DNA of 64,000 nt from Caldilineaceae bacterium bin34. GTDB taxonomy: Bacteria; Chloroflexota; Anaerolineae; Caldilineales; Caldilineaceae. The position numbers and the translations under genes are program-made. The notes beneath the pieces are model-generated. The model was not told the DNA's origin and ran no database searches. It saw only the letters and a list, made by a program, of their open reading frames with translations. Location: assembly GCA_002238555.1 (NCBI GenBank), contig MPMO01000010.1, positions 41,008 to 105,007 on the forward strand, given 5' to 3'. Positions 4,534 through 55,860 of this stretch are shown in pieces (the first letter of the stretch is position 1; each line of letters opens with the position of its first letter).

Positions 4534-5502
4534 CTACTCATCTTCCCGTGGATTGCGGGTGGTTATTCCAGGCGGCGAAGCAGATTCCTTCCCGGGCACG
4601 ATTCTTAATTGCGTTGGGTGCCATACCCGTACCGTGCCGTCATCACCGCCACTGGCCAGGGTCTGCCCGTCCGGGCTGAACGCCACGCTGTGGACCACAC
4701 GCTGGCCCTCCAGAATGTGGTGGAGGGTACCCGCGGCCACATCCCACAGACGGACAGTGTCGTCCCAACCACCGCTGGCCAGAATCAGCCCATCCGGACT
4801 GAAGACCACGCTCGCGACCACGTCCGCATGGCCTTCCAGGATGCGGAGGAGGGTCCCTGTGGCCGCGTCCCACAGGCGGATGGTGTTGTCCCCACCGCCG
4901 CTGGCGAGCGTCCGTCCGTCCGGACTGAACGCCACGCTGAGGACCTCATCCGCATGGCCCGGCAGAATGTGATGAAGCTCCCCTGTGGCTGCGTCCCACA
5001 GGCGGACAGTGTTGTCCCACCCGCCGCTGGCGAGGATTCGCCCATCCGGACTGAATGCCACGCTGAAGACTCCGTCCGCGTGGCCCAGCAAAGCGCAGCG
5101 GAAGGTGCCCGTGGCTGCATCCCACAGGCGGACGGTGTCGTCCCACCCACTGCTGGCCAGAGTCCGCCCGTCCGGATCGAACGCCACACTGAGGACGTAA
5201 TCCGTGTGGCCTCTCAGGATGTGCCGGAGGGTACCCGCGGCCGCATCCCACAGGCGAATGGTGTTGTCCCCACCGCCGCTGGCAAGGGTCCGCCCGTCCG
5301 GACTGAACGCCACGCTGTGGACCCCATCCTTGTGGCCTTTCAAGGCATACCGAAGAATGCCCGTGGCCACATCCCACACATGGACAGTGTCGTCATCACT
5401 GCCACCAGCCAGAGCTCGTCCGTCCGGACTGAACGCCACCCCGTCAAAACGCATCCTGAAGCGGGTCGTGGTGTCGGTGGGCAGGATGAGGGTAGTCTGC
5501 AT
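4534..5502 (-). CDS. WD40 repeat protein, single seven-blade propeller
   Basis: Seven tandem WD40 repeats of 42 residues (126 bp in DNA), each of the form [29 protein letters not shown]. Seven blades is exactly one closed beta-propeller, expected to act as a protein-interaction scaffold. There is no signal peptide, enzymatic domain or transmembrane segment. Repeats are very similar to each other, pointing to recent amplification or homogenisation. The frame is open to 5676, but the ATG at 5502 starts just before the first blade and is the likeliest start. The last codons end 55 bp upstream of the chosen ygfZ start. Partner proteins are unknown. Confidence 0.85.
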   Translation of the reverse strand: [322 protein letters not shown]

Positions 5503-5794
5503 GGTCGGATGAACCCGCTTGGAACGGACTGTTTTCGACACCTCTGCAGAAGTTGACCAACACCTTAATAGCCAGTACGGGCACCATGGGACATCATCGC
5601 CAAGTGCACGCAGGCCGGTTGGCAATACTTGCTCACAGTCGTCCCCCATCCGCGACCGGTGTCGGGTCCCTGCCAACCTATCTCTACAGAACTGCCGCTT
5701 CGTCGGTCATGGAACCGTGCCCTGTAGCCGACGACCAGGCAAAACCAAGGCAAGCGAACGGTGGCGGCTCGGGCAACCGGAACCGGTGCGTCGC

Positions 5795-7207
5795 CTATTG
5801 TGCACCAGGCTCCTGCTCCAGCCATCCGTGGAGGAATTCGAGTACGCTGGCGAACAGATAGCGCGTAGTGTCGGAGGTGCGGGCACCCAGCTTCAGGTAG
5901 TGGCTCTCGTCCTCGAAGTAAATGGTCTCAACCGGCACCCCGGCGTCACGCAGGGCCGATTCGTACTCAAGCGATTGGGACAACGGCACCATTTCGTCCT
6001 TCAGTGTGTGGATCAACAAAATGGGCGGCATCGCGGACGCCGAATACACGGGCGCGTACTGCATGTAGCTGTCCGGCCGCTCGTTGGCCGTACCCAGCAT
6101 GGCCAAGGCGTAGCGCAAGACCAGCGGCCACTCCATTTCACCTGAATAAAATGCCGCCGCACCCGTGAACGCGTTGCTGATTCCGCCCAGGGTCACCACC
6201 GCGGCAAACTCCCGGTCCGAGATCCGGATCAGCTTGTTGAGAATGGCGGCGCCATAGCTGCCGCTGATGGCCAGAAGCCTTGAATCGTCCAACCTGGGAT
6301 CCAGGAGGCCCTGCGCGGCAAACTGGAGCATCAGGCGCGCGTCCAAGGCATGTTCGGTGACATTGCGCCCCCGGGTGCCGATTGGGGACATGGCCACGAC
6401 GCCGAAACCCTGACTGGCGAATCCAACACTGATGTCCTCCCAGTTCCTGGTGGCATTGGGATAGAGTGCCAGGAGCATCGGGATTTGGTCTTCCGGGCCG
6501 GCATCGAGCGGCAGGTATAGGTACAGCGAATCGTTGACCGCCTCCGCCCGTTCAAAGGTCCATCGATGCACTTGGGCTCGGGCCCCCTTGGGGAACGGGG
6601 TCTCCACAACGTAGCTGCCGGCCGGTTCAAGACTGTAGGTCTCCGCGGCAACCGGGCCCAACTCATCCCGCAGCTCCATTTCCAGTTCGATCACGGGCGC
6701 AACCGCAGTCACATCGTCCTGGACGGTGATTGAGACCGGCAATCCCAGAATCGACCTCGGCATCCCGTACTCGAAACCCGGAGCCCCGGCAATGGGCACG
6801 TAGGAGCCTTGTGGCAGATCTGTCAGCAGATAGCGCCCCTTCGCGTCCGTGTGCGTGACATGCGGTGTTCCCGCAGGCTGGGCTACCAATACCACGGCAT
6901 CGGCAACGGGCTTGCCTTCGTGCACCACCTGCCCGGCCAACATTCCTTGGCCGGGCGGCAGGGGAGGCCCAAGATGAGGCTCTCCCCCGGCCATCGCCAT
7001 CTCAATTGGATTGGTGATCACCGACATGCAGCCGGATGCCATCAGCGCCGTTCCAACCAGGATCCAAAACAGGCTGATGCGCCACTCCCAACATGAGCGG
7101 GATCGCGTGTTTCCGCGGGTCGAAATCGTGTTCACGCGCGAACCGGCGTGGCACCCCTCAAACCAGGCTTTGGAATGCAACTTGTAATGGCGGAGGGAAG
7201 ATTGCAT
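5795..7207 (-). CDS. Lipoprotein alpha/beta hydrolase with carboxypeptidase-regulatory-like domain
   Basis: Probable exported, lipid-anchored serine hydrolase. Order of parts: basic N-terminus, hydrophobic segment ending in the lipobox ALMASGC (about residues 54-60), a carboxypeptidase-regulatory-like beta domain (GQVVHEGKPVADAVVLVAQP to GFEYGMP), then an alpha/beta hydrolase domain of prolyl-oligopeptidase type. Candidate triad: nucleophile in ISGSYGAA, Asp in HTLKDEMVP, His in EDESHYLK. The N-terminal region before the hydrophobic segment is long, so the start may be an internal GTG at 7135. Substrate unknown; peptides or esters are both possible. It depends on Lgt for anchoring. Confidence 0.8.
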   Translation of the reverse strand: MQSSLRHYKLHSKAWFEGCHAGSRVNTISTRGNTRSRSCWEWRISLFWILVGTALMASGCMSVITNPIEMAMAGGEPHLGPPLPPGQGMLAGQVVHEGKPVADAVVLVAQPAGTPHVTHTDAKGRYLLTDLPQGSYVPIAGAPGFEYGMPRSILGLPVSITVQDDVTAVAPVIELEMELRDELGPVAAETYSLEPAGSYVVETPFPKGARAQVHRWTFERAEAVNDSLYLYLPLDAGPEDQIPMLLALYPNATRNWEDISVGFASQGFGVVAMSPIGTRGRNVTEHALDARLMLQFAAQGLLDPRLDDSRLLAISGSYGAAILNKLIRISDREFAAVVTLGGISNAFTGAAAFYSGEMEWPLVLRYALAMLGTANERPDSYMQYAPVYSASAMPPILLIHTLKDEMVPLSQSLEYESALRDAGVPVETIYFEDESHYLKLGARTSDTTRYLFASVLEFLHGWLEQEPGAQ

Positions 7208-7621
7208 GACGGGGATTTGGGGATTGCGCCATCAACTGGCAGGAAGCCTGAAGCACCGGGAACGCGGGCGGCGACCGTGGCCACTGCCCGGAAATCCCAC
7301 GGCTTCCCCATTCAAGAATAACAAGCCAAAACGGAAATTGGCAGCAACACGGCAACAATCAACCTGACCGTGTGGAAGCGCGCCGTCGCCGGAAACTTGG
7401 TTGATTGCGAATGCGCCTTGCTGGACTGCTTGAGGCAATCCGGAGGACCGGGTTTGGCGCTGCCTTTGCGACAATGGTTCAGTTCCGGGTGACGGCAATC
7501 CCATGTGCCCGCTTCGGACACACGCGAACCGAACCATCATGGTGGCAGCTTTCGCCAGGCCCTGCCGCAATCAGCTTGCCGCTGTCAGCGCGAACGAACG
7601 CTCCGCTTCCAGGAAACACGC

Positions 7622-10600
7622 ATGCAAGGCTACTACCGACATCCGACCGTCCAAGGGAATCGAATTGTCTTCGTCAGCGAAGACGACTTGTGGTCCATTT
7701 GCCTTCAGGGCGGAGTACCCCTGCGTCTCACCAGCAATCTTGGCGAAATCGAGTTTCCCCTGCTGTCTCCCGACGGATCCCGGATTGCGTTCGTGGCCCG
7801 CGATGAAGGCGCTCCCGATATTTATGTAATGAATTCCGGTGGTGGCCCCGCCGATCGCCTGACGTGGCAGGGAGATGCCATGCAAACGGCGGCGTGGAGC
7901 CCCGACGGCGAGTGGATTCACTTCGTTACATCGGCCCGCCAGCCCGTGCGCGGATCGACGGTTCTCAATCGGGTTCGCAGCTCACCGTCCCGGTTTGTTG
8001 TCGAGGAGGTGCCCTTGGGCCGGGCCTCCTCGATTGGGTTCGGGCCCGACGGGGCCATGGTTCTGGGCCGCAACACCGGCGATCCGGCCCGTTGGAAGCG
8101 ATACCGGGGCGGCACCGCCGGCCGGCTGTGGGTATCCCCCGGGGCAGACGAGCAGTTCAGCCGCATTCTTCCCGATCTGGACGGCAACCTGGCCTCGCCC
8201 ATGTGGATTGGGACCGACCAAGGTCTGGCCGACGAACGCATATTCCTGGTCAGCGACCATGAAGGCTGCGGGAACATCTACAGTTGCCTGCCTTCCGGCG
8301 AAGACCTCACCAGGCACACCAACCTTGCCGACTTCTATGCGCGCTATCCATCCTGGGGCTTGGACGGCGATGGCCGGCCCGTCATCGTCTTCCATGCAGG
8401 AGCCGACCTCCACCTGCTGGACATCCTGAACGACACCGCCGTTCAGATAGACGTGACCTGGTCCTCACCGAGGGTGCAGCGCAACCGCAAGTTCGCGGAG
8501 GCGTCGGACCATCTCGAGTCGGCCGATTTGCATCCGGAGGGCCATTCGGTCGCGCTGTCCGCGCGCGGCAAGGCCTTCGCATTCGGAAACCATGCCGGCG
8601 GGGTCCTGCAGCTGGGGACATCCCAAGGCGTGCGCTATCGCCTGCCTTCCTGGCTGCGGGACGGCAAGCGCATCGCGGCCGTAACCGATGCCATGGGCGA
8701 AGAGCGCCTCCAGGTGTTCACGCCGGGCCGCGAGCCGGCCGAGGCTGACTTGCACGAGGGGTTCGCCTTCGGCCGGGCCATGAATCTGTACGTCAACCCG
8801 GCGGCGGACATCGTGGCAATCACAAACCACCGCTACGAACTCTGGCTGTACAACCTGGAGGACCGGACACACCTGCTGGTCGACCGGTCGCCGCACGGCC
8901 ACATCGAGCACGCCGACTGGTCCCCGGACGGCCGCTGGCTGGCCTGGGACAGGGCTCCCACGCTGCACAGCCATGCCATCCGTCTATACCGCAGGGAAGT
9001 GCCGGTGCCCGACGGCGAGGAACCCGATGGTTCGGAACAGCCCCTGACCGTGGACCTTGGGACACCCGTATTGCAGGACCACTGTCCGGTATTCGACCCC
9101 AAGGGCCGCTATCTCTACTTCCTGAGCAGCCGGATCCTCAACCCGGTCTACGACACCGTTCAGTTCAACCTGTCGTTTCCCGCCCCCATGCGCCCCTATC
9201 TGGTTACGCTGCAGGGGGATCTGCCCAATCCGTTCGTGCCGCGCACCGGTGAGGATGCGGACGAGGAGGACGAAGAGGAGAAACAGGAACAGACCAAGCC
9301 CGACGCAGACGGCACGCCCGCGGCGAACGGCGCTTCGACGGCGGAAACCACCGACGGATCGGACAAGGCGAAGCCGGACAAGGCAAAGGATCCCGCTCCC
9401 GATCCCCTACAGGTTGACGTCGACGGCATCGCGGACCGGATACTCCCCTTCCCGGTGCCTGCAGGCCTGTTCACCGTCCTGGCGGCGGCCGAGGATCGGG
9501 TGTTCTGGCTGGCTTCGGAAACCAGGCAGACCATGAAGGATCCGTGGTTGGACGATGAAACATCGCACGGAGCCACACTCCAGGCTTGGGTGTTCAAGGA
9601 CCATAAACCGAGCGAGGTGGCCACGGATGTGTCCGACATCAGCCTGTCCGCCAACCGCAAACACCTGCTGTACCGGGCCGATCAGCGCCTGCGGGTCATC
9701 AAGGCCAGCGAAAATGCCGACAGCCTGACCAATGAAGGCGCGCCCCGCGTCACCGGGTGGTTGGATCTCGGTCGCATTCGCCTGTCGATCGAGCCTTCGG
9801 CCGAATGGCAACAGATGCTCGCGGAGGCCTGGCGACTGCAGAGGGACCAATTCTGGACGCCCGAGATGTCCGGCGTGGACTGGCAAGCAGTCCATGACCG
9901 GTACGCCCCCCTGGTGCAGCGACTCGCAAGCCGGCGCGAATTCAGCGACCTGTGCTGGGAAATGCAGGGCGAACTGGGCACGAGCCACTGCTACGAGTTC
10001 GGAGGCGACTACCGACCGGGGCCCCATTGGCCGATCGGCACCCTGGCCGCGGAGTTCGAGTGGCAGGCGGATCCGCCGGGATGGCGGCTCGACGACTGGA
10101 TTGAAGGCGACGTGTGGGAGCCCGAAGTCCATTCCCCGTTTGCCGAGGCCGGGATCGACGTGGCCAGGGGCGACCTGCTGGTTTCCGTCAACGGACAGTC
10201 CGTTTCGGAGAGCGTGCCTCCCGCCAGCCTCTTGGTCAACCTGGCCGGGCAGGAAGTTCAGCTTGGTTTCCGGCGCGGCGCCCAAGTCGAGTCTGCCGAC
10301 AATGAGTCGCCAGCCGCAACCGACATGCTGAAGGGAGTCACGGTCCGCACCATGACCGGTGACAAACGTGCGCTGTACCGTGCCTGGGTGAACGCCAACC
10401 GGGCGAAGGTGCATGCGGCGGCGGACGGCCGTCTCGGCTACCTGCACATTCCCGACATGGGACCGTGGGGCTATGCGGAGTTTCACCGCGGCTTCCTGGG
10501 CGAACTCCATCGGCAAGGCCTGGTCGTTGATTTGCGCTTCAACGGCGGCGGCCATGTGAGTGCCCTGCTGCTCGAAAAGCTGGCGCGCCGCCAACTTGGG

Positions 10601-50035: not shown

Positions 50036-50536
50036 GGAAACAGTGGGGACCGGACTGTGTACACGGTCCCGCGTTCAATCCTGGGCAGAACGGAGCGGAA
50101 GTTCAGCCCGTTGTGGGCCATGTCTTCAGGGACGTTCCCAAGGCAGCCTCCCTACTGGAGATCGGGTGTTGATACCCGCCGTGCTCCTGCTCCCTGACCA
50201 ACCCATTCAACGCTTTCCAGGTTTGCTGTCAGTCGCCAGCGTTGTCTGAATCCCCCTTGGCACCAGGTCAGGTTCAGGAGGTTTGGGAAGGCGGTTGGAA
50301 TCCTCTCGCCCCCTGTCGGAACGTCGTTGCCGCTTACGCAACGAAACACTGACGAATTCACCGACCGACCCGGACAACGCGGAAACCATTCCGGCAACTC
50401 CCACCATCGTGGCAACTGATGCCCCGGAGGCAATGAGTCCGCAACTCAATCCCAAAATCACACAAGCAGGATGAACGCCATCCACTGTCCTTGTTGCTCG
50501 GATTTAGGGTTGGCCATCAAGCAGATCATGAGTCAA
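50036..50536. other. Extra 500-bp segment absent from the second copy
   Basis: No gene recognised. In the other copy the flanking blocks are joined directly (52761/52763), so this stretch was either inserted here or deleted there. Confidence 0.55.
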
Positions 50537-50970
50537 CGATGAATCTGAGCCTGCCTGCGTTCTTCGGCACGCAGTTGCCGCTCAGCCCAGTCCAAGTTCC
50601 TTGCCGCCAATAGAACAGAGGGCATCGGAACTGGAGGTGGCCCGCAGGCCATGAGCGCTCAGAGTCCATCCTCCCACCTGGCCAGCCGCTCTTCGATGGC
50701 GGCCAGGTGGATTTCCAGATCGTGAACGCTTTCGATGATCTGGTCCCGCGTCTCCTTGAACGTCTGCCCGACGCCACCTCGCCCACTCGCGGCGCAAATG
50801 CAGACTGCCCCTCCGCCAGGTTGTCCACCGCCGCGGCGATGTCGTCCAGCACCTTCAGTGCTGACCGGGTTGACTTCACCACATCCGGCACCAGGACACC
50901 AATTCGAGGCGGGACAACCGCTGGTTCACGTTGTCCGGCTCTCCGTACATGCCCCACTCGCTTTCAACAA
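50537..50970 (-). pseudogene. Decayed copy of the coiled-coil gene
   Basis: Matches 52763-53279. From the ATG at 50950 it reads a start similar to the intact copy (NVNQRLSRLELV against NVNERLARLELV), then loses frame; VPDVVKSTRSALKVLDDIAA continues in another frame and breaks again. Deletions make it about 80 bp shorter than the intact copy. Confidence 0.78.
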
Positions 50971-52485: not shown

Positions 52486-52674
52486 CTCAATCCCGGTGAT
52501 GCCAGCAATTACGGGGAACGGGACCTCATCCGCTCCGCGTTGGGGCAGATGGATCTCGCCCGCGACGATTTTCAGGATGCCTACTGCAGGCTCCAACGGA
52601 CCGAGACCAGTTCGGGGATGGATTGGATTCGCTCCCTGACGCCCGACATCACCGCCGAAGCCATCTGCGACTGA
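52486..52674 (+). pseudogene. Detached TPR tail, fused in frame to the transposase remnant
   Basis: Copy of the last 62 codons and stop of the TPR gene (LNPGDASNYGERDLIRSALG against LNPGDASFYGERGLIRSALG; ending ITAEAICD against IAAEAVCD). It is in frame with the transposase fragment, making a chimeric open frame from 52039 to 52674 that has no sign of being a real gene. Confidence 0.8.
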
Positions 52675-52761
52675 GACAGCCAGTCAGGGTGCGGGTTTCT
52701 CGGTCCCAGGCTTCCGGACCCGTCCATTGCCACCGGCCGTGACGGCGCCGGTAGGCACAAC
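52675..52761 (+). repeat. Duplicated segment, block 1 copy B, 3' flank
   Basis: Noncoding continuation of the duplicated TPR tail, matching 49948-50035. The next block (52763-53279) matches 50537-50970. Confidence 0.8.
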
Positions 52762-52947
52762 ACGATGAATCTGAACCTGCCTACGCGCCTTGGTGTACAG
52801 TTGTCGCTCCGCCAAGTCCAAGTTCCGTTTCGCCAACGAAAGAATCCGTTTTGCCACCCCGGAAAGGACATCCTCATGGCACGGAGGGCATCAGGACTGG
52901 AGGCAACCTGTGGACCCTGAACCTTGCAGGTGCACTCCGAGTCGCCC

Positions 52948-53259
52948 TCAGAGTTCGTCCTCCAGCGTGGCCAGCCGCTCTTCGATGGTAGCCAGATGGA
53001 TTTCCAGAGCGCGAACGCCTTCGATGATTTCGTCCCGCGTCTCCTTGAACGTCTGCTCGGTGTCTGCGATGGCCTGCTGAAGATCGCCCACCCGTGACGC
53101 AATTTCGGACTGCCCAGCCGCCAGGTCGTCCACAGCCGTGGCCACGTCACCCAGCACCTTCAGGGCCGACCGGGTCGACTTCACTACGTCCGGCACCAGC
53201 TCCATGACCAATTCCAGGCGGGCCAGCCGCTCGTTCACGTTGTTCAGCTGTTCGGACAT
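52948..53259 (-). CDS. Small coiled-coil protein (intact copy)
   Basis: 103-residue, strongly heptad-patterned helical protein (MSEQLNNVNERLARLELVME, DVATAVDDLAAGQSEIASRV, ETRDEIIEGVRALEIHLATI). No enzymatic domain, signal peptide or membrane helix; predicted to oligomerise. A decayed paralogue lies at 50537-50970 beside the intact TPR gene, so the original arrangement was probably TPR gene facing this gene tail to tail. Function unknown. Confidence 0.72.
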   Translation of the reverse strand: MSEQLNNVNERLARLELVMELVPDVVKSTRSALKVLGDVATAVDDLAAGQSEIASRVGDLQQAIADTEQTFKETRDEIIEGVRALEIHLATIEERLATLEDEL

Positions 53260-53526: not shown

Positions 53527-54018
53527 TTAGAACGGCACGTCCTGTCCGTCGTCCATATCGGAACCGGCAGCACCGCCGTCACCGGGAGAACCTCCGGCAT
53601 CCCGGCTGCGCCAATCGCCGCCACCTTGGTTCCCGCCTTGCCAATTGCCACCACCGGAACCGCTGCTCCAGTCGTCGCCGCCAGAGCTGCTGCCCCCACC
53701 GTAACCGCTGCCGGAACCGCCTCCGCCATAGTCACCGACCTGATCATCGCGGCCGCCCAGAAACTGCACGGTCTGGGCGCGCACATCCAACGATGCGCGC
53801 GGCTGACCGTCCTGGCCCATAAAGGCGTTGGACTTCACGCGGCCCGTCACCAGGACCTGGCGGCCCTTGTTCAAGTACCTACCGCAAGGCTCGGCCTGGC
53901 GACCGAAGACCGAAACCCTGAACCAGGTGGTGTCGGTCCTGCGCTCCCCCGACCGGTCGTTGTATACGTTGTTTACGGCGACATTGAAACTGCAAACCTT
54001 GTCTCCGGAAGGCATGTC
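53527..54018 (-). CDS. ssb: Single-stranded DNA-binding protein, exon 2
   Basis: Second exon of the interrupted ssb gene, codons 19-181. OB-fold sequence DMPSGDKVCSFNVAVNNVYN, TTWFRVSVFGRQAEPCGRYL then NKGRQVLVTGRV, a Gly/Ser-rich flexible linker and the acidic partner-binding tip DDGQDVPF. A gene call starting at the ATG 54015 would lack the first beta strand of the OB fold. Joined to exon 1 (55807-55860) it gives a full 181-residue SSB. Essential for replication, repair and recombination, so splicing should be needed unless another ssb exists. Confidence 0.93.
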   Translation of the reverse strand, partial: DMPSGDKVCSFNVAVNNVYNDRSGERRTDTTWFRVSVFGRQAEPCGRYLNKGRQVLVTGRVKSNAFMGQDGQPRASLDVRAQTVQFLGGRDDQVGDYGGGGSGSGYGGGSSSGGDDWSSGSGGGNWQGGNQGGGDWRSRDAGGSPGDGGAAGSDMDDGQDVPF

Positions 54019-54054
54019 GTAGGGTGGGCCGTCTCCGGCTGTCGTAGCGACAGT

Positions 54055-55335
54055 TCAGTCATGGTGGGCCTCCCTCCGAACCGTGCGTGCGACTTTCACC
54101 GCACACGGCTCTCCAGCTCGTACCTGCTCCCGCTCCCTGATGCACACGTCCTCAATTCGGTTCACCCGGTAATCGGTGCCGGGGATCCTCGCCAGCCATG
54201 ATCCCTGCCAGGCGGCCAGATGGCCCCCTTGTGGATCCAGAACGGCATTGACACGGCACCGATGCTTGTGGGCCAGCGTACGGGCCCATGAAGCCTTGAG
54301 GGTTTGCTGGAATCCTCGCAGTGGTCCGCGATCCTCCGCCAGCGCGTAGTACTGGCGCACCGCCTCGAATTCCTCCGCATAGAGAACCCCGATCCGGTGG
54401 TCGTCCAGGAAAGTCCGGTCGCCGCGCTCCGCAGGCTTGCCGCGCCGATGAAACGGCCGGGCAGCCTTCCGCATCAGTTCGGGCGACGAACGCAAGGACG
54501 CAGAGCCATCTTCACGGCACTGCATGCGATAACCGAGGAACTGCACGTCCGAACCTGTGCCCCATGGAATCCACCGGGGTTCCCGGCCACCGGGAGCATC
54601 ACCTCCCGTCAGGCTTCGGAGCACGGCTGTCACCTCGGCAAGCAGGGCCGCTACCGTGTCCCGGCTCCCCGAAGCCGCCAGCAGCAACGCGTTGCTGTAA
54701 CGGAGACTCTTCAGAACCGTTTCATCGCGTTTGCGCTTTAGTGCCGTCCGCGTGGATTCGAGATGGTCGTCCAGGTCCGTCAGGGCCAGCTGTGCACAGA
54801 CACCATGCAGTGATGCAGGTTGCAGGACCCCGCTGAACACCGTGGACGATTCGGGATCGGCCAACGGATAGGCATCGAAGTATCGGTTCAACAGCTCGGT
54901 GAACCGCCCGTCCTGCACCATGTGCGACAACTTGGGTCTGGATGGACATCCAGCGACGGAATTGGACATGGGTACTGCAATCGACGTGACCCACTGCTCC
55001 CCGGCCACCATGGCGCGGGCAGCCCTGAGAGCCGAATGCAGGCCGGTGTCCGGTGCCAGTCCGTGGACAAACCCGGGACCGTGCCCGGTCAGCCAGACGC
55101 CAATGATGCCGGCCAGGACTTCGGCCAAGGCCCGGTCCTGAACCGCATCGCCGCCCCAGCGAAACGTTTGGCCCCGCAGGGCCTCGATGAGCGATGGCAG
55201 TGCCAGGCGTGCATCCACCGTGGCGAACTGCCGATAGAGATTGGGATTGAACAGCAACCGGTAGGCCCTTTGCAGGGGCTGCCGTTTGCGTCCAAGTGTG
55301 AGCAGAGCATCCTGTACCGCTGCGGCGGACTGCAT
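54055..55335 (-). CDS. Group II intron-encoded maturase with inactive reverse-transcriptase domain
   Basis: 426 residues from the ATG 55335 (GAGGT upstream; the frame opens at 55407). It follows bacterial intron-encoded proteins: RAYRLLFNPNLY, LPSLIEALRGQTFRW, GPGFVHGLAPDTGLHSAL (for HGFRPGRGCHTAL), SGVLQPASLHG (for the GTPQGG motif), LRYSNALLLAASGS (for YADD, residues 213-216), VQFLGYRM, and the maturase X-like region RIGVLYAEEFEAVRQYYALA then KASWARTLAHKHRC. The RT aspartates and the IPKxxGKxRPL finger segment are gone, and no HNH endonuclease domain follows. The 3' end of the frame runs through domain V. It looks like a splicing-only maturase. Confidence 0.85.
   Translation of the reverse strand: MQSAAAVQDALLTLGRKRQPLQRAYRLLFNPNLYRQFATVDARLALPSLIEALRGQTFRWGGDAVQDRALAEVLAGIIGVWLTGHGPGFVHGLAPDTGLHSALRAARAMVAGEQWVTSIAVPMSNSVAGCPSRPKLSHMVQDGRFTELLNRYFDAYPLADPESSTVFSGVLQPASLHGVCAQLALTDLDDHLESTRTALKRKRDETVLKSLRYSNALLLAASGSRDTVAALLAEVTAVLRSLTGGDAPGGREPRWIPWGTGSDVQFLGYRMQCREDGSASLRSSPELMRKAARPFHRRGKPAERGDRTFLDDHRIGVLYAEEFEAVRQYYALAEDRGPLRGFQQTLKASWARTLAHKHRCRVNAVLDPQGGHLAAWQGSWLARIPGTDYRVNRIEDVCIREREQVRAGEPCAVKVARTVRREAHHD
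54078..54111 (-). ncRNA. Group II intron domain V
   Basis: 34 nt on the minus strand, starting GAGCCGTGTGCGGTGAAAGT and ending CGCACGCACGGTTC. It folds into the standard hairpin with a GAAA tetraloop; the catalytic AGC triad is at positions 2-4. This is the most conserved part of all group II introns. Confidence 0.93.
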
Positions 55336-55806
55336 TACGCATACCTCGCGGACCGATGCCGTACAAGCCTGTTCCCCTTCGCCCTGCCGCGGATGTTGGT
55401 CCGCCACCGACTACTACGGGAACTCCGTGGCCATGGCATGGCTGCCAACAGGCCATCCCGCGGTCCGTTCCATGTGTCCGTGTCTAGTCTGCTGTAGGTG
55501 CTCCGTTCGATTCCCGTCCGGACGTGCAGTCCGGCGAATCCGCCCTTGGGAGCACAGCCGGCAAGGCGCTCATGCCGGCTGCTTGGGCGGAATGCGGGAA
55601 GGCACCGAGCCTTTCCGCAGTGTCCTGTGAGGCACTCTGGAATCTGGAATTCAGGCAATTCAGCTTTCACCATGGCAGACAGGCGCGCTGCGACATGCTT
55701 TGGTCCCCTGCAGCCTTTCGGCATCGGGTCAGTCGCGGCGCCTGGCACGAACTCCCTTGTGCCGCCGGCTCCACCGGCAAGACACATGGACGGCCTAGCG
55801 GCGCAC

Positions 55807-55860
55807 GCGCATTTCAGGGTCGGCACCGAGATTGCCGACGATGGTCAGAAGTTGATACAT
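55807..55860 (-). CDS. ssb: Single-stranded DNA-binding protein, exon 1
   Basis: Codons 1-18 of ssb: MYQLLTIVGNLGADPEMR, the first beta strand and turn of the OB fold. A strong GAGGAG ribosome-binding site lies 6 bases before the ATG. The frame is closed by the intron, so this exon is too short to be called alone. Transcribed divergently from the M24 peptidase gene. Confidence 0.93.

Follow-up and report, generated by a model that had tools for sequence, protein, structure and literature searches.

In genus g1 (four genomes, all drafts, 94-98% complete), to which Caldilineaceae bacterium bin34 belongs, the only ssb gene that we found is split by a group II intron, and the conserved, RT-dead protein encoded within this intron is likely a dedicated maturase that enables the production of SSB, a reading that we consider very probable. 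The split gene lies within a 64,000-nt stretch of contig MPMO01000010.1 (positions 41,008 to 105,007, hereafter referred to as the window) of the bin34 genome, a 4.63-Mb draft that is 97.3% complete. A first-pass annotation had claimed, from the letters of this DNA, that a group II intron divides ssb and leaves 18 residues in exon 1, and this was borne out with exact coordinates. Beyond that earlier reading, we describe here a conserved maturase-like intron-encoded protein (IEP) that has lost its RT active site, the RT-dead family to which this protein belongs, and a second genus with an intron at the same ssb site.

The Split ssb Gene

Exon 1 of ssb (55807..55860, reverse strand) extends from an ATG start to codon 18, encodes MYQLLTIVGNLGADPEMR, and has a Shine-Dalgarno-like GAGGAG a short way upstream. 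Exon 2 (53527..54018, reverse strand; DMPSGDK...DDGQDVPF-stop) encodes the remaining OB fold, a glycine-rich linker, and the acidic tip DDGQDVPF; it matches the Pfam SSB profile with 80.3 bits at profile positions 19-104, and has a dN/dS of 0.133. The intron is inserted in phase 0 after codon 18, i.e., at the boundary between Arg18 and Asp19. Removing it gives the gapless DPEMR-DMPSG join that the first-pass annotation had described, and adding the 18 exon 1 residues to exon 2 raises the Pfam SSB score by 24.5 bits to 104.8, with the match now starting at profile position 4 instead of 19. Together, the two exons are an intact SSB coding sequence, and we agree with the earlier remark that a gene call beginning at the ATG at 54015 would yield an N-truncated SSB.

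Exon 1, intron, and exon 2 are found at an identical boundary in all four genus g1 genomes. Whole-genome searches with the SSB profile, the kind of check that had been proposed for detecting another ssb, found a match in 45 of the 46 genomes of the family, and in each of the four g1 genomes exactly one, beginning at profile position 19; none of the four yielded an ssb other than the split gene. A second ssb in g1 is unlikely, and its absence from these searches is not proof since the genomes are drafts of 94-98% completeness. The Rfam model RF00029 also has exactly one match in each of the four genomes (best 150 of 220-257 candidates scored in each), and neither a further copy of the intron nor any other group II intron was found in them with this model. 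At an E-value of 0.001, RVT_1 has no match in two of the genomes (G000 and G003) and one match each in G001 and G002. The G001 protein (L118:1407-3203) has 598 aa, a weak match and a YVDD motif, and by eye is unlike group II intron proteins.

Elsewhere in the window, positions 50526-50957 and 52581-53259 (reverse strand) both encode a similar VPDVVKSTRSALKVL...-type sequence as judged by eye, and the former is possibly a disrupted version of the latter.

The Intron RNA

The intron (54019..55806, reverse strand, 1788 nt) begins with GTGCG at 55806 and ends with CCCTAC at 54019, in line with the earlier claim that its ends fit GUGYG/AY. The 5' consensus GUGCG (55802..55806, reverse strand) is kept in all four g1 genomes as well as in six ssb introns of another genus, g9, discussed below. 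A covariance-model search, which the first-pass annotation had suggested as a check, gave a match to RF00029 at 54113-54019 (reverse strand) over the full length of the model (66.2 bits, E 8.5e-11, gathering threshold 40), with the 34-nt domain V intact. In the Rfam alignment, domain V occupies 54078..54111 (reverse strand) and has an AGC triad and a GAAA loop, which presumably serve their domain V roles in the window intron, and domain VI with the 3' end occupies 54019..54077 (reverse strand). We infer that the A at 54025 (reverse strand), which is the seventh base from the 3' end and lies in a bulge of two unpaired bases in the Rfam structure, is the expected branch point.

Across the four g1 introns, 92-99 of every 100 alignment columns are invariant in columns 1-500, which represent the 5' ribozyme half; the corresponding values for the ORF are 92-95 per 100 in columns 501-800 and 80-89 per 100 in columns 801-1700, and 74 of the 88 columns at the intron 3' end are invariant. 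Scanning the window intron for EBS1/EBS2 complementarity returned several matches of 5-7 bases with similar scores.

Comparison of the g1 and g9 introns gave rise to the idea of a pairing between the base that precedes a conserved ACGGAGT block and the first base of exon 2. In the window, these are a C at 55429 (reverse strand), the predicted EBS3, and a G at 54018, its predicted IBS3 partner. We compiled 17 distinct, partly related intron rows and dropped two (L093 and L097) in which the 3' end was not found; in the 15 that remained, with 3' ends that were chosen by pattern and could be wrong (e.g., in contigs with two introns, such as L078 and L085), the two bases form a standard pair in 12 cases, 10 of them Watson-Crick, a result equaled by 0.24% of shuffling trials. 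When the five ssb-intron rows that prompted or share the idea are left out, 8 of 10 form a pair (2.1% of shuffles, permutation p 0.02). The window pair is C-G (Asp codon GAC), the g9 rows L039, L041, and L090 pair A-T (Tyr codon), and the misses are L070, L078, and L081, the last of which lies in another of the G062 ssb paralogues and has A opposite C. We read the base preceding ACGGAGT as a putative EBS3 and its exon partner as IBS3, and such pairing goes with the IIB intron type.

The Intron-Encoded Protein and Its Family

The intron ORF (54055..55335, reverse strand) encodes an RT-dead maturase-like protein of 426 aa from an ATG at 55335 (or 450 aa from an alternative upstream GTG at 55407), and its 3' end passes through domain V. 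In this IEP, the RT active site YADD is replaced by YSNA, and an endonuclease domain is absent. RVT_1 was not found in it by Pfam, whereas the control IEP of the g9 genome G031 matches RVT_1 with 121.8 bits, and TIGR04416 scores 18.4 bits against a cut-off of 300. The Pfam domain Intron_maturas2 (PF01348, domain X) is present at 21.9 bits, barely above its cut-off of 20.8, and the QYY and RTLAHKH stretches are retained. The C terminus of the predicted structure is of low confidence, with pLDDT <50 from residue 401. The reading frame is open in all four g1 genomes, and the IEP is under purifying selection: its dN/dS, calculated from four close genomes and pooled over non-independent pairs, is 0.185 overall, 0.113 in the thumb/X part, and 0.38 in the C-terminal part of the palm, which is relaxed.

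The RT-dead family comprises 20 database protein clusters with identities to the window IEP down to about 38%, and YADD is lacking in all 24 aligned family members over the same range. The family may be larger, because the protein searches scored the best candidates alone (the best 7998 and the best 7997 respectively; P0009, P0011, and P0012 come from the first search alone). Its distant members are P0007-P0020, with about 38-43% identity. A contig scan of 84,980 species with the IEP, from which records close to the window genome were possibly left out, yielded five loci, namely three genus members, L062 (a distant relative at 22% identity), and L063 (a match in domain V only), and did not find the DNA loci of P0007-P0020. 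No IEP relatives were found in viral contigs, and none of 16 plasmid records spans 80% of P0011. The named close relatives by IEP are three Caldilineales/Caldilineaceae MAGs (Chloroflexota), and among 396 genomes of the class, 400 of the phylum, and 46 of the order, full-length high-scoring members are restricted to genus g1 (two of these searches scored the best 4 candidates per genome).

The L063 locus (L063:5378-6126), in a Chloroflexaceae MAG, is an ORF-less group II intron with an RF00029 score of 70.1 bits, and in its domain V region it has 46 nt in common with the window intron. Its flanks resemble a tRNA gene interrupted right after a CCA anticodon, and the split gene is not called by ARAGORN. 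Apart from the domain V stretch itself, that genome yielded no RT-dead family member that could act on this intron in trans. A candidate tRNA insertion was also seen on contig 26 of G022 (L047:4558-4592), where a group II intron is followed by an apparent tRNA 3' half.

Another Intron at the Same ssb Site

Five of the 17 genomes of genus g9 (G031, G033, G062, G064, and G067) have a group II intron at the same DPEMR| boundary, in six ssb genes in total, as G062 carries two copies. From genome to genome, the identity of these introns is 83-96%. The active site of their IEPs is YADD in G031, G064, and G067 and FADD in G033, and all four frames are unbroken. All five intron-bearing genomes also have two or three ssb genes whose match spans profile positions 2-104. 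The ssb array of G031 adjoins a gene 52% identical to the M24 peptidase neighbour of the window ssb, and this common neighbour indicates the same locus. The RT therefore looks to be working where ssb is backed up (g9), whereas it is dead where no backup was found (g1).

In G062, identical introns with the same broken RT frame occupy two different ssb paralogues (L111:1918-4340 and 5475-7897), which suggests that the intron recently passed from one ssb gene to the other by homing or gene conversion. Another g9 genome, G029, is 98% complete and has no SSB profile match, possibly due to an assembly gap at a tandem ssb array, and the SSB profile search found an N-terminal ssb fragment in G063.

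We considered shared descent of the g1 and g9 ssb introns and found no support for it: a profile of the g1 5' RNA gives the g9 ssb introns only 12-15 bits and introns at other sites up to 44-50 bits, and a quick tree of the IEPs places the RT-dead family on a long branch away from the active RTs. Based on these RNA scores and this tree, the ssb site may have been colonised twice, with two intron lineages reaching it separately.

Proposed Mechanism and Alternative Explanations

We propose that the precursor RNA would fold, that the RT-dead protein would bind it via its thumb/X domain, and that splicing would join Arg18 to Asp19. Mobility would have been lost because cDNA cannot be made, and the intron is probably no longer able to move. 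ssb is an essential gene; cells without another ssb would not survive a loss of splicing, and both the ribozyme and the maturase would thus be kept under selection, of which plant MatK is a known case. Cells of g1 likely depend on an intron that would have to be removed from every SSB message.

A different division of labor, with splicing by the ribozyme alone or by host factors and with the RT-dead protein as a decaying remnant or in some other role, has several points in its favor: most of the ORF is less conserved than the 5' ribozyme half, which is 92-99% invariant; domain V is intact; and group II introns without an ORF are known, such as the one in the apparent tRNA gene at L063. However, a frame that stays open in all four genomes, and across 20 protein clusters whose identity falls to about 38%, with dN/dS of 0.185 (0.113 in thumb/X), is not expected of a remnant, and we regard this explanation as improbable. 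It is harder still to sustain that there is no splicing at all, and that exon 2 is translated alone from the ATG at 54015 into a truncated SSB with exon 1 as a relic. That ATG, one codon inside exon 2, is indeed present in all four g1 genomes, while the g9 ssb genes that were compared have T, A, L, or S there. Nevertheless, exon 1 is intact and differs at 2 of 54 sites over the four genomes (both set the window apart from the other three) as compared with a pooled dS of 0.19 for the IEP and 0.37 for exon 2, its 18 residues fit the SSB profile as seen from the gain on joining, and the 17 nt between the GGAG and the ATG at 54015 are far for a ribosome-binding site. This explanation is therefore very unlikely.

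The gene might also be an artifact of misassembly of two loci, which the first-pass annotation had raised, or the split copy might be dispensable if SSB is supplied by an undetected second ssb. All genomes are drafts, and 8 of the 396 genomes of the class are without any ssb match, so assemblies do lose ssb. On the other hand, exon 2 is under purifying selection, the junctions are identical in four of four genomes, and a second ssb was found in none; the same intron and boundary in all four make a chance misjoin very unlikely, and we assign to either version the smallest probability among the alternatives. We favor the reading that the RT-dead IEP is a dedicated maturase for the ssb intron.

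Comparison with Known Systems and Implications

The RT-encoding introns (the ssb introns of G031, G033, G064, and G067, and those of P0021-P0023) are of the same intron type as the window intron, with the g9 copies at the identical ssb codon boundary. They differ in that they keep the ADD active site and longer fingers, the G031 IEP (25% identical to the window IEP) has an HNH domain, and the g9 hosts retain full-length ssb. LtrA (5g2x, 8h2h) and other solved group II intron RT/maturases are similar to the window IEP in fold and profile, although LtrA is an active RT of 599 aa, compared to 426 aa in the window IEP, and the two are about 15% identical.

Judged from the sequences, the g1 intron is most likely a bacterial counterpart of plant MatK, i.e., an intron that has lost mobility and is trapped in an essential gene with its own RT-dead maturase. 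MatK and the plastid trnK intron share with it degenerate RT motifs, a retained domain X, an essential gene, and presumed loss of mobility; MatK is organellar, of the IIA type, and binds several introns, whereas one group II intron was found per g1 genome (PMC4424553). The same review, from 2015, knew of a single bacterial example, O.i.I2 of Oceanobacillus iheyensis, with a degenerate ML-class IEP and exons encoding RadC (PMC4424553). Going by this published description, O.i.I2 is likewise a bacterial group II intron with an open ORF without YADD, in a DNA repair gene, and with an inferred maturase role. That case is one intron in radC, and its IEP is of the ML class, whereas in the window case the sole ssb found is interrupted, the arrangement recurs in four genomes, purifying selection has been measured, and the RT-dead family amounts to 20 database clusters.

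Housekeeping genes are rarely split by group II introns, according to a published account (PMC6003770). We found no report of a group II intron in ssb in the open-access literature, and later examples may exist. Bacterial group II introns are thought to persist by moving. In g1, an RT-dead, single-copy intron is kept through the genus (four of four genomes) within an essential replication gene of which no other copy was detected, and a family of conserved proteins stands behind it. A broader proposal, which we offer tentatively and consider possible rather than probable, is that an old, separate lineage of RT-dead maturases sustains immobile introns in essential genes across distant bacteria, and that in g1 every SSB would come from maturase-aided splicing, which could act as a switch on DNA replication.

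The g1 intron would provide a bacterial model of how a selfish intron becomes an obligatory, host-dependent one, a course that organellar introns and the spliceosome are proposed to have taken. For comparison, genus g9 would represent the state in which the RT encoded at this site probably still works and full-length copies of ssb are present.
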